This document shows positions 1-63,170 of a DNA stretch of 64,000 nt, piece by piece. The notes beneath the pieces were generated by a model, which worked only from the letters and a program-made list of their open reading frames with translations, did not search any database and was not told the origin of the DNA. The stretch comes from Deinococci bacterium (GTDB lineage: Bacteria; Deinococcota; Deinococci; Deinococcales; Trueperaceae): the NCBI GenBank assembly GCA_030149325.1, contig JASBRS010000010.1:1-64000 (forward strand), written 5' to 3'. The position numbers and the translations under genes were made by a program. Numbering within the stretch: position 1 is the first letter of the stretch; every line of letters begins with the position of its first letter.

Positions 1-2401
1 TGCGGGCCAGGCCCTTGAAGACCTCCCAATCGGAGCGTGACTCCCATGCCGGGGGCACTGCCTCCTGCATGGGGTTGATGAAGCTGTGCAGGTCGGTGCT
101 GTTGAGGTCGTCCTTCTCGTACCAGGTGGCGGCCGGGAGGACGATGTCGGAGTACAGCGCGCTGGTGTCCATGCGGAAGTTGATGTCGACCACCAGGTCG
201 AGCTTCCCGGTGGCCGGGGCCTCGCGGTAGGTGACCTCGCGGACGGCGCCGGCCGCTCGCTCCGGAGCGCTGGCGTTGGAGTGGGTCCCCAGGTAGTGGC
301 GCAGCATGAACTCGTGCCCCTTCATGCTGGTGCCGATGGCGTTGCCGCGCCAGATGAACCAGACGCGCGGCCAGTTCTCCGGTGCGTCCGGGTCGTCGAC
401 GGCGAGCCCGAGGCTGCCGTCGCGGAGCCGATCGACGACGTGCTGCACGATCTCCTCGTCGGTCGTGGCGCCGGCATCTGCCGCCTCGCGGGCCACCTGC
501 AGCGGACTGCGGTCGAACTGCGGGTAGAAGGGCAGCCAGCCCATCCGCACGGCTCGAGCCTGCTGGTCGATGGTGTGCTCCGGGGTCGTGTCGTGGTGGT
601 CGAGGGCGTGCCGGTCGTAGGCAGCGAAGCCGGGCTCGTAGCGCCACTGGTCGGTGTGGACGTAGTGGAAGCTCGGCGCGTTCTGCTGGCGGCTGGCGGC
701 CCCCCAGTCGGCACCGAAGGCGATGGCGCCCCAAGAGGCATGGCAGGCGAGCTTCTCCTGACCGACGTAGTGCGCCAGGCCGCCACCGTTGGTGCCGACC
801 GCGCCGGTGAGCATCAGGGCCGTGATGGCGGAGCGGTAGATGAGGTTGTTGTGGTACCAGTGGTTCGCTCCGGCGCCGATGATGATGAGGTTCCGGCCTT
901 CGGTCTTCTCGCCGTTCGTCGCCCAGGCTCGGGCGAAGCGCAGCAGGGTGTCGCGGTGCACGCCGGTGCGGGACTCCTGCCAGGCGGGGGTGTAGAGCGC
1001 CTCCTCGTCGTCGTAGTCGATCGGTTCGTCGCCGGCAGGGGCCACGCCGAACTGCGCGAGGAGAAGGTCGAAGGTGGTGGCCACCGCCACCCGCCCCTCG
1101 TCGGTCTCGACGTAGCGCACCGGTACGCGCCGCTCCACCGGGCGATCGTTCGAGAGGTCGTCGAAGGTGACGGCCAGGCGTTCGTCGTGCTCCGCTGCGA
1201 AGCTCAGCGCCGGGGCGAGGGGCTCGCCGTCGAGGCCGTCGATCGGCTCGAGGTTCCACTTGCCGGCGTCGCCCTGGCCCCAGCGGAACCCGAGCGTCCC
1301 CTGCGGCATGCGGGGTCGGCCGCTGGTCTCGTCCCACACCAACAGCTTCCAGTCGGGGTTGGCCACCTCGCGGTAGGCCGCGACGGCCCCGGCGCGCAGG
1401 AAGCGGCCCGGGCGGCCCTCGTCGATGCGGACGAGGAAGGGGGCGTCGGTGTAGCGACGCAGGTAGTCGGTGAAGAACGGGACCGTCCGTTCGACGTAGA
1501 ACTCCCGCAGGATGACGTGGTCGACGGCCATCCAGAAGGCACCGTCCTGTCCGGCGTGCGCCGGGATCCACCAGTCGGCGTACTTGGCGACCTGCGAGAA
1601 GTCGGGACTGAGGACGGCGAGGTGGGCCCCGGCATGCCGGACCTCGCTCACGAAGTGCGTGTCCGGCGTGCGCGTCATGTTGAGGTTGGAGCCCATCACG
1701 GCGATGAAGCGCGCGTTGTACCAGTCGGCCGACTCGTGCACGTCGGTCTGCTCGCCCCACACCTCGGGCGAGGCCGGCGGAAGGTCGCAGTACCAGTCGT
1801 AGAACGACAGCGGCACGCCCCCGAAGAGCGACAGGAAGCGGCTTCCCGCCGTATAGCTCACCTGGGACATGGCGGGGATGGGGGAGAACCCGATGACGCG
1901 GTCCGGGCCGTACTTCATGGCGGTATGCAGCGTCGAAGCGGCCACGATCTCCTGGGCCTCGTCCCAGCCGACCCGCCGGAAGCCGCCCTTGCCGCGCGCC
2001 CGCTGGATCGCGCCGCGCGTCTCGGCGTCGTTCATCAACGATGCCCACGCCTCCACCGGGTCGGCGTGTCTCGCCCGGGCAGCGCGCCAGGCGTCGATCA
2101 ACACGCCGCGGGCGTAGGGGTGCTTCACGCGGATGGGGCTGTAGAGGTACCAGGAGAAGCTGATGCCGCGCTGACAGCCGCGGGGCTCGTACGGGGGAAG
2201 GCCCTCCTCGAGCTGGGGGTAGTCGGTCGCCTGCAACTCCCAGGTGACGATGCCTTCCTTGACGAAGACCTCCCAGCTGCAGCTCCCCGTGCAGTTCACG
2301 CCGTGCGTGGTGCGTACGCGCTTGTCGTGCTGGAAGCGGTTCCGGTAGAACTCCTCCCACTTGCGCTCGGTCGGCGACGCGACCTCCTTGATCCACTTCA
2401 T
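1..2401 (-). CDS. narG: respiratory nitrate reductase alpha subunit NarG (partial, C-terminus beyond window)
   Basis: Catalytic Mo-bisMGD subunit of membrane-bound nitrate reductase, which reduces nitrate to nitrite on the cytoplasmic side. About 800 of some 1200 residues are present and the frame is open to the left edge. The N-terminal [4Fe-4S] ligands His33, Cys37, Cys41 and Cys76 are visible in the typical NarG pattern ([10 protein letters not shown], then PRGC). Further in, [12 protein letters not shown] carries the expected Asp ligand of molybdenum, followed by the NarG-typical [14 protein letters not shown]. The last readable residues ([11 protein letters not shown]) also match NarG. 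The start ATG overlaps the narC stop as ATGA, so the two genes are translationally coupled. There is no Tat signal, as usual for NarG. narH, narJ and narI are expected beyond the left edge. Confidence 0.96.
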
Positions 2402-3432
2402 CGACGTGGCCTCCCAACTCGGCCCGTGCGCCTCAGGCGCTCGGACGCGCTCTCGCGCTGGCGCGGCCAGCCGATGAGCAACAGGGCGAAGAGCAGCGGC
2501 GCACCGACGGCGGCGAAGAGCCAGATCCAGTTGAAGCCGAAGCGGGCCGGGTCGGCGCCGGCGGTGCCGTGCGCGTGGGCGGCGCTCGCCGTCTCCCGGA
2601 GGTAGGCGACTAGGTCCGCGATCTCCGCGTCGGTGAGGGGGTGGCTCGCGAACGTCTGCCGCATCACCGGGAAGGCGATGGTCTTCAGGACGCCCTGGAG
2701 TCCGGTGCTCTGCCCCATGCGGTCGTAGGCGGTGGTCAGGTCGCGGCCCATGCTGCCGCCGCCCAGCGGGCTCTCGCGCTGGACGGCGTGGCACGCCGAG
2801 CACGGGGGCGCACCGTTGCGGAAGCGCAGCTCACCGGAGAAGAGGGCGTGGCCGACGGAGGCGTCGCCCGCCGGCGCGGCTGGCGCCGTGGAGGGCGCCG
2901 CCGGAGGGGTCGATGCGGCCGGCGTTGCCGCCGTTCCGCCGCCGGCGCTCGGACCCGCGAAGCCGTTGCCCCAGGCGCTGCGAAGGTAGTCGGCGAGCGA
3001 CTGGACCTCGGCGGCGCCGAGCTGCGCGCCGAACGGCGGCATGCTGCCGTCGAAGGTCGCACCGCCGACCTGCAGCGGGCCCGACAGCCCCTTCTCGATC
3101 ACCGATCGCACGTGTTCCGCGTCCGCGAGGGCGGCGTTGCCGGCGAGGGGCGGGAAGACGCCCGGCACGCCGGTGCCGCCGGCCTGGTGGCATGCGGCGC
3201 AGTGCTGGTCGTAGAGCTCGGCCCCGGTCGCTGCCCGCGCCACCGGTAGCGCGCTCCACGCCGCGACCGCCAGGAGAACTGCCGCCAGTACCTCGGGTCT
3301 CGGTGCCGGTCGTGCGGTGCGGGCGTGAACTGGCTGTCGGCCATGGGACGCCGGCGCCTCGCCAGGGCATCGCTGGGCCGGTGGGGGTTGTAGACGGCGA
3401 TCGCAGGCTGCGTTCGGGCGGTCACGGAACAT
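2398..3432 (-). CDS. narC: diheme cytochrome c NarC
   Basis: Membrane-anchored periplasmic electron carrier with two CxxCH heme-c sites, CAACH at residues 78-82 and CSACH at 211-215. A Pro/Ala-rich linker of about 30 residues separates the two cytochrome domains. A hydrophobic segment at about 49-67 is the export signal and a C-terminal transmembrane helix lies at about 300-322. Position directly before narG matches the Thermus narCGHJI order, where NarC is needed for nitrate respiration; that family knowledge underlies the name. The N-terminus before the signal is unusually long (about 46 residues). The ATG at 3432 is nevertheless supported by a TAGGCT box 9 nt upstream, which would give a leaderless transcript. 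No better in-frame start is seen closer to the signal. Confidence 0.88.
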
Positions 3433-3447
3433 CGTGGGGCGAGCCTA
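3433..3447 (-). promoter_or_regulatory. putative leaderless promoter of narC-narG
   Basis: On the minus strand TAGGCT lies nine bases before the ATG of narC (TAGGCTCGCCCCACGATG). The distance puts the expected transcription start at or next to the start codon, and no Shine-Dalgarno sequence fits between. Prediction by position and TANNNT match only. Confidence 0.45.
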
Positions 3448-3531
3448 GGCGCAGCCGCTTTCGATCGGCTTACGGTGCGCCCACGCCGCGCCCCTCCCGA
3501 CCCGGGGGTCGGTCGTTCCCCCGCCCGCCCG

Positions 3532-32963: not shown

Positions 32964-33000
32964 TCCGATAACGCTCCGATAACGGTCGCCCACCTAGCCT
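32964..33000 (+). promoter_or_regulatory. 11-bp-period direct repeats and -10 box upstream of the lipoprotein gene
   Basis: TCCGATAACG occurs at 32964-32973 and again at 32975-32984, exactly 11 bp apart. A TAGCCT box follows at 32995-33000. The TAA core of the second repeat is 15 bp from the box, the same geometry as at 34930 and 59107. Such tandem repeats in the -35 region are typical of OmpR/PhoB-class activators. Inferred from the sequence only. Confidence 0.5.
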
Positions 33001-33052
33001 GCGGTGTCCGCACGAACCAACGGCCCTGCGTCGTTCCTCGGGGAGGGGGACC

Positions 33053-34867
33053 ATGTCACGAATCCATCGTCTGTCCGTCATCGGCGTGCTGCTGTTCGCC
33101 GTCGCCTGTTCGTCCACCCAGGTCCCCTCGGCGCCCGGTGGCGGCGGGGGTGGAGGACCGAGTGGGTCGGGCCCCATCCCGATGAGCTACACACCCGACA
33201 CCGCGCACGCCTCGCACGCCTCGATCGGTGCCGCTGGGGGCACCCTCACCGCCACCGGCGCCGACGGCAGCCGCTACACCCTCACGGTGCCCGCCGGCGC
33301 CCTCACCAGCGCCACCGACCTGTCGCTGACGCCGCTCAAGGACGTCGTGGTCGACGGCACCAGCGCCGGCTGGCAGGTCGGTGTGCAGCTCGGTCCCAAC
33401 GGCACGCAGTTCCTGCAGGCCGTGACGCTCGACATCCAGACCGCGGCCGGCGCGCCCTCCCAGGCCGCCGTCACGCTCGTCGACGGCAGCGGGACGGTGT
33501 ACGTACCGCAGAGCTCGCCGACGACCGGTGCGAGCTTCAGCGCCGACCTGTGGCACTTCAGCGACTACCTCGTCGCACCCCTGACCGACGGCCTGCTGGG
33601 CCGCGCGGCCGACGCGGCCATCGCCGACGTTCAGGTGCCCGCCGTGAGCCAGGACCTGCAGGACCTGATGGGTCTGTGGGCGGCGGCGAGGTCGAAGCAG
33701 TTCGCGGACGCCGTAGCGCGCCTCGACCAGGCGCTCGCCGCAGCCATCGCCTCGTTCACCGATGCTCAGCAGGGCAACGCCGATCCCACCGCGGGCACGC
33801 TCTACTCCGGCCTCGGTGCCTACCACGCCGCCGTCGCGTCGGGACGGACGAACGATGTAGGCACGCTGCAGCAGAACGTGCAGCACGTCTTCGGCACCTG
33901 GATGCGGGTCCTCGACCTGCGGTACCTCCAGGCGGGCGGCGACTTCGCCACGCTCCAGTCGCTCATCGCTCCGCTCGCCCAGGCCATCGACATCGCGGCG
34001 GCGAACCCCTTCATCCTGGCGGGCGGCTACGTCATCGATCCGACGGCCGAGGCGCAGAAGGTCATCGACACGCAGCTCGCCCTCGCCGACCAGGACTGCG
34101 ACAAGGCCCACTTCGCCAGCGGCGTGATGGAGCTCCAGGACATCATGGGTGGCGTGAAGCTGCTCGGACTCACGACGCCCAGCGAGACGCTGCTCCAGAA
34201 CGACGCGGCCACCTGCGTGCCGCCGGTCGTGACGGGGATCGAGATCGTGTCCGACACCGTCAGCGCCACCTCCGACTACAACCCGAACAACGGTCAGCCC
34301 GGGGCCACCACGAGCGACGTCGAGCCCCCGAGCCCGCTCCTGGTCACCAGCAGTACGAAGATCACCGCTCCGGCGCAGACGCAGGACGCGAGCGTCCAGA
34401 TCGACCTCGGCGCCGCGCTCACCGGCAATGACACCGCGACGCTCGACGTCTCGGGCACGGCCAATGCGGCGCACCCGGTATCGACCGAGCTGAGCTGTGC
34501 CTACGGCGATCTCGGGAGCGGCGGCTACGACGCCATCCGCATCGACTACGACCACGCGCGGGCTCCGATCAAGGTCACGGTGAAGTGGACGGCCGGCTCC
34601 AGTGCCGGCGGCTACGCCAACGCCCGTGTCAGCGGCACGGTGCTGGGCACGGACCTGGGGTTGTCGGGAGGCAGCAGCGGCACGGCCACGCTGTCCCGAG
34701 CCGGCATGGGCTGGACGCCCGGGAACCCCGATCCCAGCAGCTCCGCTTCCGTCTACCTGGGTCTCAGCGTGGGCGCCGGGGACTGCAAGGGGATCATCAC
34801 GCAGGACGGCTCGGCCACGGCGAGCGCAAACGTGGCGGTGCAGATCGCGCCCGACCCGCAGCCCTGA
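33053..34867 (+). CDS. secreted lipoprotein with ZU5-like domain
   Basis: A 604-residue predicted lipoprotein. The lipobox AVAC puts the lipidated Cys at residue 19, followed by a Gly/Ser/Pro linker. Residues about 55-140 resemble a ZU5-like beta domain (IGAAGGTLTATGADGSRYTL, TVPAGAL). The middle (about 190-370) is helical with LQDLMGLWAAARSKQFADAV. The C-terminal 200 residues are Thr/Ser-rich and strand-forming. No enzyme motif is seen and I do not recognise a full-length family. GGGGAGGGGG precedes the ATG. It is followed by a terminator-like hairpin, so it is probably a single-gene unit, under the tandem-repeat promoter at 32964. Confidence 0.82.
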   Translation: MSRIHRLSVIGVLLFAVACSSTQVPSAPGGGGGGGPSGSGPIPMSYTPDTAHASHASIGAAGGTLTATGADGSRYTLTVPAGALTSATDLSLTPLKDVVVDGTSAGWQVGVQLGPNGTQFLQAVTLDIQTAAGAPSQAAVTLVDGSGTVYVPQSSPTTGASFSADLWHFSDYLVAPLTDGLLGRAADAAIADVQVPAVSQDLQDLMGLWAAARSKQFADAVARLDQALAAAIASFTDAQQGNADPTAGTLYSGLGAYHAAVASGRTNDVGTLQQNVQHVFGTWMRVLDLRYLQAGGDFATLQSLIAPLAQAIDIAAANPFILAGGYVIDPTAEAQKVIDTQLALADQDCDKAHFASGVMELQDIMGGVKLLGLTTPSETLLQNDAATCVPPVVTGIEIVSDTVSATSDYNPNNGQPGATTSDVEPPSPLLVTSSTKITAPAQTQDASVQIDLGAALTGNDTATLDVSGTANAAHPVSTELSCAYGDLGSGGYDAIRIDYDHARAPIKVTVKWTAGSSAGGYANARVSGTVLGTDLGLSGGSSGTATLSRAGMGWTPGNPDPSSSASVYLGLSVGAGDCKGIITQDGSATASANVAVQIAPDPQP

Positions 34868-34878
34868 GGGGGAGGGCA

Positions 34879-34920
34879 GCGTGGGTCCGACGTCGTTCCA
34901 GAGCGACGACGGACCCACGC
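34879..34920 (+). terminator. hairpin after the lipoprotein gene
   Basis: GCGTGGGTCCG (34879-34889) pairs with 34910-34920, and CGTCG (34891-34895) with CGACG (34904-34908) after a single A/A mismatch. It starts 12 bp after the stop and ends before the HD-GYP promoter repeats, separating the two units. Confidence 0.6.
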
Positions 34921-34929
34921 CGTGCCGCC

Positions 34930-34968
34930 GTAAGAGCGATGTAAGACCGGGCCTGGTATCAAGGTCGC
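34930..34968 (+). promoter_or_regulatory. 11-bp-period direct repeats and leaderless promoter of the HD-GYP gene
   Basis: GTAAG at 34930-34934 repeats at 34941-34945 (11-bp period). TATCAA at 34957-34962 begins 15 bp after the second TAA and stands 6 nt before the GTG at 34969. The box is an imperfect TANNNT match. The repeats would lie over the -35 region, as for OmpR/PhoB-type activators. Confidence 0.5.
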
Positions 34969-36048
34969 GTGAGGTCCGGCCCCCCGACCGGCCTCGCGCG
35001 GCGCCTCGTCGATCCGCGCGTGGCCGCACTGGTCACGGTCCCGGTCGTTGTTCTCGTACTCACGTGGGGGCTGGGTCGAGTCACTCCGGGTATCCCGTTC
35101 CTGGCGCTCTTCGTCGTTCTGGCGGCGGGGCTCTGGTTCGGCCCCGTGGCGGGCGCCATCGAGGGCGTCTACGCGGCGGTCGTCCTCGGTCCCTGGATCG
35201 GGGGCGTGGTGGTGGTCGGCACCAGAGGCGGCCAGGGCCCCTGGTGGGGCCCGCCGCTGTTCTTCGCGATCCTCGGGCTGGCCGCCGGTATCGCTACCGA
35301 TCGCCTTCGCAAGCGCCTCGCCGCCGAGGAGGCGCAGCGCAGGGAACTCACCCGAGTGCACGCCCGGACGTTGATCACCTTCGCCAACCTGGTCGCGCAC
35401 CGGGATCAGCCCACCGCCTACCACTGCGAACGCGTCGCCGCGAACGTGCGCAGCCTCGGCAAGCTCTACGGATTGCGCGGCAACGAGCTCAACGCCCTGT
35501 ACTGGGCGGGCATGCTGCACGATCTCGGCAAGGTCACCACCCCCGCCGCCATCCTCCTCAAGGACCGCAGCCTCACCCCCGAGGAGTACCGGATCATCCA
35601 GCAGCACGCGGCCATGGGCGCCGAGGTCCTGCTCGACATCAGCCCGCGCTTCCGGCCGATCGCCGAGGGCGTGCGCAGCCACCACGAACGGTGGGACGGC
35701 AGCGGCTACCCCGACGGCCTTGCCGGAGAAGCCATCCCGCTGTTCGGGCGGCTGCTGGCGGTGGTCGACGTGTTCGAGGCGATGACGGCGCCGCGTCCCT
35801 ACCGCGGTCCGATGCCCCGCGACGAGGTGTTGGAGCACCTGCGCAAGCGCTCCGGCAGCGAGTTCGATCCCGAGATCGTGCACCTCTTCGAGTGCCTCTA
35901 CCAGGAGGGCCGGATCCGGACCTACGCCGACGGCCAGCCCGCCCCCGCCGACCTCGCCACCGGCATCTTCAGCACCGGCTTCTGGGACGCGCCCGATGGG
36001 GACGCGGCCAGGGCCGAGCCCGACCGCGTGCTGGCCGGGACCGACTGA
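34969..36048 (+). CDS. membrane HD-GYP domain cyclic-di-GMP phosphodiesterase
   Basis: A 359-residue protein. The N-terminal part (about 17-110) has three or four membrane helices and no recognisable sensor domain. A short coiled linker (RKRLAAEEAQRRELTRVHAR) leads into an HD-GYP domain at about 130-320. Metal-binding HDLGK is at 184-188, HHE at 238-240 and the GYP triad in DGSGYPDGL at 246-248, so the enzyme should be active against cyclic di-GMP. The GTG start has no ribosome site but has a promoter box 6 nt upstream. The promoter repeats match those of the pilin operon, tying c-di-GMP turnover to pilus genes. Confidence 0.93.
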   Translation: MRSGPPTGLARRLVDPRVAALVTVPVVVLVLTWGLGRVTPGIPFLALFVVLAAGLWFGPVAGAIEGVYAAVVLGPWIGGVVVVGTRGGQGPWWGPPLFFAILGLAAGIATDRLRKRLAAEEAQRRELTRVHARTLITFANLVAHRDQPTAYHCERVAANVRSLGKLYGLRGNELNALYWAGMLHDLGKVTTPAAILLKDRSLTPEEYRIIQQHAAMGAEVLLDISPRFRPIAEGVRSHHERWDGSGYPDGLAGEAIPLFGRLLAVVDVFEAMTAPRPYRGPMPRDEVLEHLRKRSGSEFDPEIVHLFECLYQEGRIRTYADGQPAPADLATGIFSTGFWDAPDGDAARAEPDRVLAGTD

Positions 36049-59095: not shown

Positions 59096-59138
59096 GTGAG
59101 AATCCCGTAAGAACTTCGTAAGGGGGCGCTCCTAACAT
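59096..59138 (+). promoter_or_regulatory. triple 11-bp-period direct repeat and -10 box of the pilin operon
   Basis: GTGAG (59096-59100), GTAAG (59107-59111) and GTAAG (59118-59122) follow each other at exactly 11-bp steps. TAACAT (59133-59138) starts 14 bp after the last TAA. The repeats occupy the -35 region, as expected for an OmpR/PhoB-type activator that touches RNA polymerase. Matching double repeats precede the HD-GYP gene (34930) and the lipoprotein gene (32964). The gap from the MFS exporter start to the first pilin (58965-59313) is otherwise non-coding. Confidence 0.6.
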
Positions 59139-59145
59139 GGGCGCA

Positions 59146-59224
59146 CCCCCATCCGGGGGATACACGGCCCCGCCTTGGGTCTGTAGGGTCGGGGTAGGTC
59201 CGACCCGAACCAGACGGCAGACCC
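59146..59224 (+). ncRNA. predicted structured 5' leader of the pilin operon
   Basis: The leader can fold into a small hairpin (59146-59150 with 59155-59159) and a nested structure. GGGTCGG (59186-59192) pairs with CCGACCC (59200-59206). GGGTCTG (59177-59183) can pair either with CAGAC (59211-59215, five pairs) or with CAGACCC (59218-59224, seven pairs). The two outer pairings exclude each other, as in a switch. It does not match the c-di-GMP or other riboswitch motifs I know. Confidence 0.4.
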
Positions 59225-59313
59225 TAGGCTTGCGCCTGTGCGAGCGTCGGCCTGCACGCGGCCGCCAGAGCTCGGACGGATCGGGGTTGGTGCAGGAGGG
59301 GGTAGACACGAGC

Positions 59314-59823
59314 ATGACACCGTTCTCTGCGCGTCGTGGGATGACGCTTCTCGAAGTCCTCCTGGTCATGGCCGTGCTCGGCCTTCTCCTGGCCGCTGGC
59401 ATCACGAGTCTGGGGCGGCTCGGTCGTAATCAGGCCTACCAGGGCTACGTTACGGGCTTCAGCCAGGCCGTGTCCGAAGCGACCACGCGCGCGAACGAGT
59501 CGAACACCGTCTACGCGCTCGCCTTCGACCCGACCGGCTACCGCTGGGGTCCGGTGGGTGGCACGGTGGCGTCCTGCACCGGAGCTTCCACGGTGCCATC
59601 GTTCGTGGGAGGCGCCGTCACCCAGCGGTCGGCGCCCAGCGGCGTGGCGACGTCCCCGAGCGGCTGGCTCTGCTTCTCGGCACCGGGGCTGGTCGATCGA
59701 CTGACCGCGCTCGGCGCCACCTGCGCCTACAAGGGCTACACCTTCCCCTGCATCACGTTCTCCGGCACCGGCAAGAGCGAGCGCATGTTCATCTCGGTGG
59801 GCGGGCAGGTGGTGCTGCAATGA
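59314..59823 (+). CDS. type IV minor prepilin (GspH/PilA-like)
   Basis: A 169-residue prepilin. The leader peptide MTPFSARRG is cut by prepilin peptidase before MTLLEVLLVMAVLGLLLAAG, with the conserved glutamate at +5. The hydrophobic helix is followed by a globular domain with four cysteines that could form two disulfides (VASCTGAS, GWLCFSAP, ATCAYKGYTFPC). The ATG at 59314 gives the correct short leader; the longer upstream reading from 59137 crosses the structured leader and is rejected. First of four genes coupled by overlaps. The homologous Thermus cluster encodes minor pilins needed for pili and DNA uptake. Confidence 0.92.
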   Translation: MTPFSARRGMTLLEVLLVMAVLGLLLAAGITSLGRLGRNQAYQGYVTGFSQAVSEATTRANESNTVYALAFDPTGYRWGPVGGTVASCTGASTVPSFVGGAVTQRSAPSGVATSPSGWLCFSAPGLVDRLTALGATCAYKGYTFPCITFSGTGKSERMFISVGGQVVLQ

Positions 59824-60278
59824 GACGCACGACGGGCTTCACGCTCATCGAGGTCATGGTCGCGCTCGCGATCCTCTTGGTGGTCATCTCGGCCGCGGCA
59901 GGCGTCTACCTGACGGGATTCCGATCGAACGCGCAGACGCAGCTCACCACGCAAGCGAGCCAGGTGCTCGCCGGACTTTCGGGACAGATCACGCAGCATC
60001 AGATCTCCCTGGCGGCGGGCGCCTCGACGATCATCGTCTACGATCAGGGGCCTTCGCCGCAGCAGATCACGGTGACGCCGGCTCCTGCGAGCTGCAGCAG
60101 TTTCCTGGCCAACGATCACACGCACCTGTGCGCCACCATCCGAAACGTCGACGCGTTCGATCCGAAGTCTGCCGGAGGGGTCACCTTGCTGGCGAATGCG
60201 ATGCGGCACTACAACATCCAGGTCTGCTGGCCCATCCGGGGGGGTACCCACTGTGCTGAAGCCAACACGCTCTACTGA
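59820..60278 (+). CDS. type IV minor prepilin (PilV/GspI-like)
   Basis: A 152-residue prepilin with a six-residue leader and the N-terminal signature TGFTLIEVMVALAILLVVIS. Cleavage falls after the glycine, with Glu at +5. The globular part has Cys in ASCSSFLAND and HLCATI and a third and fourth in QVCWPIRGGTHC. The start overlaps the upstream stop as ATGA, and the C-terminus overlaps the next prepilin gene by 26 bp. Probably part of the initiating minor-pilin complex at the pilus tip. Confidence 0.92.
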   Translation: MRRTTGFTLIEVMVALAILLVVISAAAGVYLTGFRSNAQTQLTTQASQVLAGLSGQITQHQISLAAGASTIIVYDQGPSPQQITVTPAPASCSSFLANDHTHLCATIRNVDAFDPKSAGGVTLLANAMRHYNIQVCWPIRGGTHCAEANTLY

Positions 60279-61164
60279 CGGTTTCACCCTGATCGAGGTG
60301 TTGCTGGCTGCGACGATCCTCATCGTCGTCCTGGGGATCGTCACGCGCGGGCTCGTGGGATACCTCGGCTACACGGGCCAGGTCCAGGCGAGTACCGACG
60401 TTCAGATGCAGTTGCGGCGCACCATGGAGCTCGTCACCCAGGACCTCCGGAACGCCAGTTTCGGCATGCTCGCCTCCACACCCTACGTCTCCGACCAGCA
60501 CGACGTCTCGTTCATGCAGATGGACGAGACCAGCGCCTACCAGGTCCTCAAGGGCAGCGCGACGCCGTCGCAGGGGTTCCAGAACGCCGACAACTTCCAG
60601 GTGGTGGCGCCCGCCGACCTGAGCTGGGTCAGCGGCGACCTGGTGCTCCTCCTCAACCCGCACAGCGGCCAGGGGACAGCGCTGGTGCTCTCGAAGAACC
60701 CGGGGATGACGGGCCACGACTGGACCGCCGTCCACGCCAAGCAGGCCAACACCATCTGTTGGGACCAGGACATGCTCGCCGTGAAGGCGACGGCCCTGGG
60801 CTACCGCTACGACGCTGCCAACAAGCTGCTCATCCGAGGTACCGGCGTGAGCGTGGCCGGGTCGTCGGCGGGCTCACCGCTGGGTAGCGTCGTGGAACAG
60901 CCCGTCGCCTTCGACGTCAACGGCTTCGACCTGGGGTACATCGGAGCGGACGGAACCAACTACCCCTCCCTGGCCAGCGTGCCGAGCGGTGTCCGCGTCG
61001 TGCGCATCGCGGTCACCGTGAAGATGAGTGCCGTGAGCCAGCATCGGACCATCACCAAGTCGCTGACCAGCTACGTCGAGCTGCCGCAGCAGTTCACGCT
61101 CACCTCGCAACCGCTCGACTTCGTCCAGGCCGTCCAAGGCAGCCCGAACGTCACGTGCCCATGA
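60253..61164 (+). CDS. type IV minor prepilin (PilW-like)
   Basis: A 303-residue PilW-type prepilin. From the GTG at 60253 the leader is about ten residues (LKPTRSTDG), then FTLIEVLLAATILIVVLGIV. The large globular domain has RTMELVTQDLRNASFGML, a conserved PilW region, and a strand-rich end with VRIAVTVKMSAVSQHRTI. The GTG is chosen because it gives a proper prepilin leader; an earlier in-frame GTG adds antisense-like residues from the previous gene. It overlaps the preceding gene by 26 bp and leads directly into the ComZ-like gene. Confidence 0.9.
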   Translation: MLKPTRSTDGFTLIEVLLAATILIVVLGIVTRGLVGYLGYTGQVQASTDVQMQLRRTMELVTQDLRNASFGMLASTPYVSDQHDVSFMQMDETSAYQVLKGSATPSQGFQNADNFQVVAPADLSWVSGDLVLLLNPHSGQGTALVLSKNPGMTGHDWTAVHAKQANTICWDQDMLAVKATALGYRYDAANKLLIRGTGVSVAGSSAGSPLGSVVEQPVAFDVNGFDLGYIGADGTNYPSLASVPSGVRVVRIAVTVKMSAVSQHRTITKSLTSYVELPQQFTLTSQPLDFVQAVQGSPNVTCP

Positions 61165-61175
61165 GAGGAGCCGTC

Positions 61176-63170
61176 ATGCCCCGACGCCAACGCAGCCAAG
61201 GCTTCGCCATGGTCACGGCGCTGCTGTTCGTCGCCGTGCTGTCGGTTCTCACCGGGCTGGTGGCGCTGTTCACCGTCAACAACGCCCGCCACACCAAGTC
61301 GAACGTCCTCATCAACCGGACGTTGGCCGTGGCGCAAGGCGCCAGGAACCTGGGCGCCGCCCTGCTGAGCCAGACGATCAGCACGCAGCTCGGCAACGAG
61401 ATCGACGCCGAGGCGAGCTCGGGGGCCCTCGGCGGCAACGGCACCTGGGTCTTCGATCCGACCAACAACCAGCAGAACGCTGCGGCGCCGAACCCGAGCG
61501 CCGTGATCGCGAACCTCCAGACGCTGGCGACGAACCTCCAGCAGACGCTGGCGGGCGGAGGATGCTACGGCCCCTACGCGCTCTCCAGCGGAGAGCGGAT
61601 CCTGGTGCGGATCACCTTCACGGGGGCGCTGCCCAACTGCGATGGCAGCGGCAGCTCCACGGCCGTCAAGATCGGCTACGGCCGGTTCCTCAGTGGCTCC
61701 CGCTCGAGTACCCAGTCCTACACCCTGCCGTACGTGATGGTCGTGTCGGGCACGGAAGGGTCCGCCCAGCGTACGCTGACCCTCTCGGGGCAGTACAACT
61801 TCGACGTGGGCAACGGCAGCTTCGCACGCTACGCGCTGTTCACCGACTCCGAGCAGGTGGCGAGCGGGAGCTACAACTACCTGACCGGCTCGTACCTGTT
61901 CGACGGCCCGGTGCACACCAACGGCAACTTCGCCTTCTACGGGAACCAGTACGACAAGGCCACGCCTGGAACGGGCCAGCCGTACTTCTTCGGGAAGGTG
62001 GGCAGCGCCGGCGTCAACGACCGAGGCAGGCCCGGCGCCTACTTCTGGCCGTCGAACGGCGGTGGAGGGCCGAGCTTCCGCACCCCCAGCCAGCTCGCGA
62101 CGCCCTCCTACGGGGGAACGACGCCGAACTTCCAGAAGGGGGTCGACTGGCAGGCTCCGTACATCCCGCTCCCGACGAACGCCACCGATCAGGTGGCCGG
62201 CGCCAAGAGCAACGGCCTCTACATCAACGGGAGCGTGGCGTCGATCCAGCTCTTCGCCGGGGACGATGCCGGCAACACCCTCGTGCAGGACCCGCAGACC
62301 AAGGCCTGGCAGCCGTCGGCGGGATCCAACGCCACCGTCTACCAGTACATCAAGGTGTGCGCTACCGCCACGTCGTGTGACCTGTACCGTTCCTACGTCG
62401 ACCCCGCTACCGGCAACAAGGTGCTGGAGCTCCAACAGAACAACGGATCCTGGAAGTACCAGGTCTCGCCCTTCAACGGCGTGATCTACGCCAAGGGGAA
62501 CGTCGATTCCTTCAGCGGACCGGCCCGCCCCAGTGGCGCTTCCGACGCCAGCACCACGCCTCCCGCCATCGCTTCGTTCTCGCAACTCGACCTGGTCACC
62601 GCCCTGGACGTGCGCGTGACGGGCGACCTGAAGTACCAGGATCCGGTGTGCGACGGCGCGTTGCGTCGCGACCCGGCCAGCGGCACCCCGATCAGGCCGA
62701 CCTGCCAGAGCGACCCCGCGGCCGTTCAGAACGTTCTCGGCATCTACGCTTCGGGGCAGGGCGGCGGCAGCCCGACCTGCACCTTCCCACCGGGCACCGG
62801 AGCGAACGGCAAGGGCAACGTGTGCTTCGGCTACAGCTTCAGCGACCCATCGCTCAGAGCGCCCCGGAACCTCGAGGTCGACGCCAGCATCATGGCTGCG
62901 AACAAGGTCGACATGGAACAGTGGGCCTACGCCCCGGTGCGCGGCACGCTCTCGATCCTCGGTGGGGTCATCACCAAGTACGACGGCGTGTTCGGCGTCT
63001 TCAGCGCCTCCAACGGCGCGCAGCTCAACGGCGTGTTGCCCCGCTTCACGTACGATCCGCGGTTCGACAACGGCCTGGCTCCCCCCCTCTTCCCACAGGC
63101 CACGCAGCCCAAGTTGACGGGCACCGTGGCCCCCATCATCTACAGCCAGAGGGAACAGGTCGCGAACTGA
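61176..63170 (+). CDS. PilX-like/DUF4900 pilus protein (ComZ-like)
   Basis: A 664-residue protein with a PilX-type N-terminus (RQRSQGFAMVTALLFVAVLS), i.e. a class III-like signal helix, then a very large beta-rich domain. Parts resembling DUF4900 include SGSYNYLTGSYLFDGPVHTN and NGVIYAKGNVDSFSG. The last 150 residues carry ILGGVITKYDGVFGVF. In Thermus the gene in the equivalent place after three minor pilins is comZ, required for DNA uptake; the correspondence here is by order and N-terminus, not by proven homology. The ATG at 61176 has GAGAGGAG seven bases before it; ATGs at 61161 and a GTG at 61155 are alternatives. Followed by a strong terminator. Confidence 0.85.
   Translation: MPRRQRSQGFAMVTALLFVAVLSVLTGLVALFTVNNARHTKSNVLINRTLAVAQGARNLGAALLSQTISTQLGNEIDAEASSGALGGNGTWVFDPTNNQQNAAAPNPSAVIANLQTLATNLQQTLAGGGCYGPYALSSGERILVRITFTGALPNCDGSGSSTAVKIGYGRFLSGSRSSTQSYTLPYVMVVSGTEGSAQRTLTLSGQYNFDVGNGSFARYALFTDSEQVASGSYNYLTGSYLFDGPVHTNGNFAFYGNQYDKATPGTGQPYFFGKVGSAGVNDRGRPGAYFWPSNGGGGPSFRTPSQLATPSYGGTTPNFQKGVDWQAPYIPLPTNATDQVAGAKSNGLYINGSVASIQLFAGDDAGNTLVQDPQTKAWQPSAGSNATVYQYIKVCATATSCDLYRSYVDPATGNKVLELQQNNGSWKYQVSPFNGVIYAKGNVDSFSGPARPSGASDASTTPPAIASFSQLDLVTALDVRVTGDLKYQDPVCDGALRRDPASGTPIRPTCQSDPAAVQNVLGIYASGQGGGSPTCTFPPGTGANGKGNVCFGYSFSDPSLRAPRNLEVDASIMAANKVDMEQWAYAPVRGTLSILGGVITKYDGVFGVFSASNGAQLNGVLPRFTYDPRFDNGLAPPLFPQATQPKLTGTVAPIIYSQREQVAN

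Follow-up and report, generated by a model that had tools for sequence, protein, structure and literature searches.

The window analysed here is a stretch of 64,000 nucleotides from a Trueperaceae assembly of 3.04 Mb (below, the source genome), which was scanned by pattern searches. Three promoters in the window, located in front of a lipoprotein gene, an HD-GYP gene and a minor-pilin/ComZ operon, carry tandem direct repeats followed by a −10-like box. The features of these loci are as follows:

32964..32984, + strand: two-copy CGATAAC box (TCCGATAACGCTCCGATAACG), distinct in class from the GTAAG boxes but sharing their geometry
32995..33000, + strand: presumed −10 box TAGCCT, 11 nt past GATAAC
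33053..34867, + strand: lipoprotein gene (604 aa, lipobox VACS), without a Pfam or NCBIfam family
34930..34945, + strand: two-copy GTAAG box GTAAGAGCGATGTAAG of the HD-GYP promoter, copies at 34930 and 34941, 11-bp period
34957..34962, + strand: presumed −10 box TATCAA, 11 nt past the GTAAG box
34969..36048, + strand: membrane HD-GYP (c-di-GMP phosphodiesterase-type) gene, 359 aa, Pfam HD_5 2e-40
59096..59122, + strand: three-copy box GTGAG/GTAAG/GTAAG of the pilin operon promoter, copies at 59096/59107/59118, 11-bp period
59133..59138, + strand: presumed −10 box TAACAT, 10 nt past the three-copy box
59314..59823, + strand: first minor prepilin gene (MTPFSARRGMTLLEVLLVMAVLG...), N_methyl Pfam match on ORF 59137-59823, TIGR02532
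59820..60278, + strand: second minor prepilin gene, N_methyl 1.8e-8
60196..61164, + strand: third prepilin gene, N_methyl 1.6e-4 (ORF limits, the true start is perhaps downstream)
61155..63170, + strand: gene of a ComZ-like large protein with DUF4900 (8e-22)

All three arrays, first noticed in a sequence-only reading of the window, were confirmed at the coordinates given there and have an 11-bp period (the copies of TCCGATAACG in the lipoprotein promoter begin at 32964 and 32975). The −10-like boxes, which the same reading had placed 14–15 bp after the last TAA, follow the repeats after 11, 11 and 10 nt, TATCAA being an imperfect match to TANNNT. The HD-GYP gene also matched the NCBIfam response regulator c-di-GMP phosphodiesterase family, below the cut-off. 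The start of the first minor prepilin gene was picked from the sequence, and the name ComZ is one that we assume from the position of the gene. A search of the window by regular expression retrieved one HD-GYP gene and three prepilin genes, all of them located behind GTAAG sites. The TATCAA box lies 6 nt upstream of the GTG start codon and the HD-GYP transcript is predicted to be leaderless, as are those from several sites located 5–8 nt upstream of a start codon.

The window was searched for the GTAAG-N6-GTAAG pattern with dinucleotide shuffles as a control, while the reversed pattern served as a control for the exact pair in the source genome. With at most one mismatch allowed, the window contained four matches compared to 0.29 expected, and none of 100 shuffles attained four. 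The exact pair occurred eight times in the source genome and its reverse was absent. The proposal that the HD-GYP promoter and that of the pilin/ComZ operon belong to one class is supported. When TANNNT was added to the pattern and up to three mismatches were allowed, the source genome yielded 26 sites (2 in the control) at a distance of 11 nt and 12 sites (5 in the control) at 10 nt. A search of 111 genomes of the phylum for an exact match to the two-box pattern with TANNNT at 10–11 nt retrieved 66 sites in 19 genomes (control, 0), all of them belonging to the family of the window or to two genomes of a second family; the one-mismatch pattern retrieved 188 sites in 39 family genomes (control, 2). 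The excess over chance that the sequence-only reading had proposed as a check was therefore observed. Since single GTAAG copies are not rare, chance repeats in GC-rich promoters could be considered, an explanation to which we attach practically no weight: it is already refuted by these counts, and orthologous genes are repeatedly found behind the sites.

The consensus of 23 sites of the source genome reads G-T-(A/C)-A-G-A-(A/G)-N-N-C-(C/T)-G-T-(A/C)-A-G, followed after 10–11 nt by TANNNT, with box positions T2, A4, G5 and G12 invariant; since the sites were found with that pattern, the consensus, including the invariant positions, is partly or mostly a matter of construction, the letters outside the search pattern being (A/G) at position 7 and C at position 10. 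A weak box with two mismatches (GTAAGCCGATCGAAAG, window 3442-3473, minus strand), followed by TAGGCT 10 nt on and located upstream of ORF 2398-3432, may be due to chance.

Outside the window, sites in the source genome precede further pilus genes, the major pilin being among the targets: two type IV pilin genes (contig 76), a prepilin operon (contig 55), pilT (a T2SSE ATPase by Pfam, with a four-copy array upstream) and a HAD-pilB operon in which Pfam identified an MshEN domain. The c-di-GMP targets include, by Pfam, another membrane HD-GYP besides that of the window, one receiver-HD-GYP and one GGDEF-EAL protein. Further sites are located in front of a CheY-like receiver gene, the genes of the S1 protein (rpsA) and a DsbH/DUF255 protein, an rlpA-like operon, and a small gene that has a LysM-M23 gene behind it. 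Seven of the 19 sites with at most two mismatches lead into pilus, c-di-GMP or receiver genes, an outcome with a chance probability of about 5e-6 if such genes make up as much as 4% of the genome (an assumed share); the genes behind many sites have no evident pilus or c-di-GMP link. Of the surface regulon suggested by the sequence-only reading, the pilus and c-di-GMP genes stand, the lipoprotein gene is not supported as a member, and rpsA, dsbH and the rlpA-like genes are not obviously connected with the surface.

Genes downstream of sites in the relatives were grouped by regular expressions and blastp clustering. By the latter, pilA was located behind sites in nine other genomes, including both genomes of the second family. 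The same was true of dsbH in several other genomes, rpsA in at least two, the rlpA-like operon in two and the pilB operon in one; receiver/HD-GYP genes were found behind sites in several other genomes, and minor pilins recurred too. The repeats are therefore present upstream of orthologues in other genera (pilA, dsbH, rpsA, pilB and rlpA-like genes), and hits in related genomes do concentrate before pilus and c-di-GMP genes, as had been anticipated; the same expectation failed for the lipoprotein box, the CGATAAC pattern being at background level in the relatives. In the dsbH promoters of G012, G019 and G106 the second half-site is GTCAG, with the geometry kept. No site was found upstream of pilT in four other Trueperaceae MAGs (all four nearest PilT relatives of the window genome were such MAGs), and the dsbH site is missing in many family genomes, so that individual targets turn over. 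The pilT promoter, lacking conservation in the four MAGs, was rejected as a conserved footprint.

A search of leaders behind the sites against Rfam returned no family except SRP RNA near pilA. In three genera the gene of the small SRP RNA is only some hundred bases away from the pilA site (L053 875-971, L259 5067-5163, L268 4-100). The dsbH leaders behind the box (L063 1534-1700; L260, L251, L266, L375) are long and flanked by GCGCTGGA-like and CCAGCGC-like segments; they matched no Rfam family among those searched, and this shared leader could be a structured regulatory RNA. Another leader type, GTGGACCTGAGGTAATTCTCCC, is common to several genomes (L008 1533-1796; L256, L269, L288, L291), has an S1/rpsA gene downstream where read and is likewise without an Rfam match.

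Activators of the PhoB/OmpR type use class II promoters in which direct repeats, spaced by one helical turn, end 10–11 nt before the −10 element. The GTAAG sites consist of two to four tandem direct copies with an 11-bp period, a TANNNT box (assigned as the −10 element by sequence) is located 10–11 nt past the last copy, and 13 proteins of the source genome carry Trans_reg_C, the DNA-binding domain of the OmpR type. Period, copy number and −10 spacing thus agree with the OmpR/PhoB-class geometry that had been claimed for these promoters, and for the sites before pilus and c-di-GMP genes the sequence-only reading was right. Being close to the −35 region and at a fixed distance from a −10 box, GTAAG could instead be the −35 element recognised by an alternative σ factor. 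However, arrays of two to four copies at exactly 11 bp are unlike a σ factor pattern, and GTAAG ends too close to the −10 box compared with the normal spacer of 16–18 bp, which leaves no space for a −35 element at normal spacing. In addition, since arrays of three to four copies keep the −10 spacing constant from the last copy, they fit a polymerising activator and not a σ factor −35 element. We consider the σ factor explanation highly improbable; the GTAAG repeats are very probably landing sites of one activator. The GTAAG box is a real, family-wide promoter class of known architecture, with a coherent pilus and c-di-GMP regulon.

Protein binding, activation and the identity of the regulator are inferred, and the following scheme can be proposed. 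The GTAAGA-N4-Y-GTAAG arrays of two to four copies with an 11-bp period would be operators for a response regulator (RR) of the OmpR/PhoB family, acting as a class II activator in Trueperaceae. RR dimers would align head to tail over the −35 region, and the bound RR would make up for the absence of a −35 element by bringing RNA polymerase to the TANNNT box 10–11 nt past the last copy. The core of the regulon would comprise type IV pilus genes (pilA, minor pilins/ComZ, the pilB operon and pilT) and c-di-GMP turnover enzymes (HD-GYP, receiver-HD-GYP and GGDEF-EAL), with dsbH, rpsA and the rlpA-like operon as recurrent extra members.

Since the three window promoters share the 11-bp period, the spacing to the −10 box (11 nt, in one case 10 nt) and a TAA core, a single regulator tolerating GATAAC as a variant of GTAAG could serve all of them, as the sequence-only reading supposed. 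This now appears quite improbable, and the lipoprotein promoter has to be set apart. Its half-site (CGATAACGCTC) differs from the GTAAG of the HD-GYP and pilin promoters: position 5 of the box is G in the 23 GTAAG sites of the source genome and C in the lipoprotein boxes, which keep a fixed CGATAACGCTC register, and the sole recurrence of CGATAAC boxes is in front of a second lipoprotein gene, none being located before pilus genes. The perfect TCCGATAACG pair was never produced by window shuffles. In the source genome, CGATAAC-N4-CGATAAC retrieved one exact match, that of the window, and two overlapping one-mismatch matches (contig 17:7428-7456). The contig 17 array (L404, 7381-7456, minus strand), the only other copy of the lipoprotein box in the source genome, contains three repeats, CGACAACGCTC/CGATAACGCTC/CAATAAC, followed by TAGGCT 11 nt on, and the gene behind it codes for a 568-aa lipoprotein with a poly-Gly linker. 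No homology beyond noise was detected between the two lipoproteins. A second site with the same geometry in the source genome and mere background in the relatives point to a second box class, and the CGATAACGCTC box probably serves a different regulator from that of the GTAAG box; the arrays before the two lipoprotein genes would then form a second, smaller regulon under another regulator of the OmpR/PhoB family.

GTCAGG-N5-GTCAGG boxes were observed near OmpR-family RRs of one type (L040, contig 72, ~950-1010; L139; L150), in the source genome directly upstream of the contig-72 RR, which suggests autoregulation through a different half-site. The separate CGATAAC class fits with these boxes, and several OmpR-family regulators here seem to share one geometry with half-sites differing.

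The PhoB box of E. coli consists of CTGTCAT half-sites arranged as 11-bp direct repeats over the −35 region of phosphate genes. The GTAAG sites resemble PhoB promoters in having two to four copies of 11-bp repeats over the −35 region at about 10–11 nt from the −10 box, but their half-site is GTAAGA and not CTGTCAT, and their targets are pilus, c-di-GMP, dsbH and rpsA genes and not those of phosphate starvation; they are therefore not Pho boxes. WalR/YycF (TGTWAH), PmrA/QseB (TTAA(G/T)) and CpxR (GTAAA at 10 bp) are likewise OmpR-family readers of TAA-containing half-sites in direct repeats of 10–11 bp, from which the GTAAG box differs in consensus letters or period. Another OmpR-family regulator, RpaA of Synechococcus elongatus, is linked to natural competence, which depends on type IV pili (PMC7125226); it belongs to a cyanobacterial circadian system, in another phylum. 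No earlier report of this promoter class was found in the literature searched, which covered few subscription journals.

Which RR could read the GTAAG arrays? An RR gene on contig 22 (31607-32272), part of an RR-HK pair, was detected in 26 of the 28 site-bearing genomes of the family and was missing from 6 of the 11 without sites (table 26/5/2/6, Fisher ~0.003, uncorrected for relatedness; the exceptions are G009 and G097). G002, G006, G018, G024 and G110, all at least 89% complete, have neither this RR nor sites, and in genus g7 a site is present in G109, the single member that has the RR, and absent from the four members that lack it. As to the exceptions, G097 has one site and its genus-mates carry the RR, and G009 (a MAG with 9% contamination) has 10 sites but no full-length copy; at the cut-off of 1e-50 used in this search, truncated copies could be missed. 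No GTAAG array was found upstream of the contig-22 RR gene itself, and the RR, with a similar recognition helix, is also present in families f3 and f4, which are devoid of boxes.

The nearest solved relative of the contig-22 RR is Rra of D. radiodurans (PDB 3Q9S; 113 of 214 aligned residues identical), which, going by its name, is likely to be DR_2418/DrRRA; the contig-22 RR appears to be its orthologue. Another RR, L042, was rejected as the DrRRA orthologue, the solved Rra being closer to the contig-22 RR. The name Rra for the 3Q9S protein is from PMC5965902. The candidate RR is, like DrRRA, an OmpR-family protein of the same phylum, and biofilm formation depends on DrRRA (PMC10778927), so that, if Rra is DrRRA, the candidate connects to this role. 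Unlike the box described here, the binding sites proposed for DrRRA have no GTAAG repeats (PMC10778927, PMC9195949, PMC12027078), and the contig-22 RR therefore remains a candidate; that it reads the GTAAG arrays is a serious possibility, if slightly short of an even chance.

It is rather unlikely that the regulator is another conserved OmpR-family RR (contig 81, L042) or lies outside this family. L042, whose copies in the window genome and G016 are 98% identical and which was present in each of the six genomes sampled (four families), could by its conservation serve a conserved regulon, but it is also strongly conserved in genomes without sites (G002, G006, f3, f4). RRs of a third type, L039, were rejected as the regulator since several site-bearing genomes lack them; they had come into consideration through G007, where the genes of L039-type RRs (L138 990-1050, minus strand; L143) are immediately preceded by three YNTAAG-like repeats with an 11-bp spacing. 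Taken together, we consider it likely that the GTAAG arrays are operators of an OmpR/PhoB-family RR governing a pilus and c-di-GMP regulon, with the contig-22 RR as the likeliest reader and CGATAACGCTC marking a separate regulon.

According to a 2023 Thermus paper (PMC10507856), very little is known about the regulation of pilus genes, and the same largely holds for their switching in the Deinococcus-Thermus phylum. The box would provide a precise operator, a listed regulon for a mostly uncultured family and one main regulator candidate, joining pilus genes and c-di-GMP enzymes at the level of transcription. More tentatively still than the assignment of the reader, one two-component system, that of the Rra orthologue, may act in Trueperaceae as a master activator, coupling type IV pili with c-di-GMP turnover through the GTAAGA box; if so, a pilus regulon would have been mapped in the phylum, along with a molecular path by which a stress regulator could influence surface behaviour. 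Near the pilB operon, on the opposite strand, two neighbouring OmpR-type regulators were also observed whose receiver domains are degenerate (L087/L088, contig 8:14058-15689).
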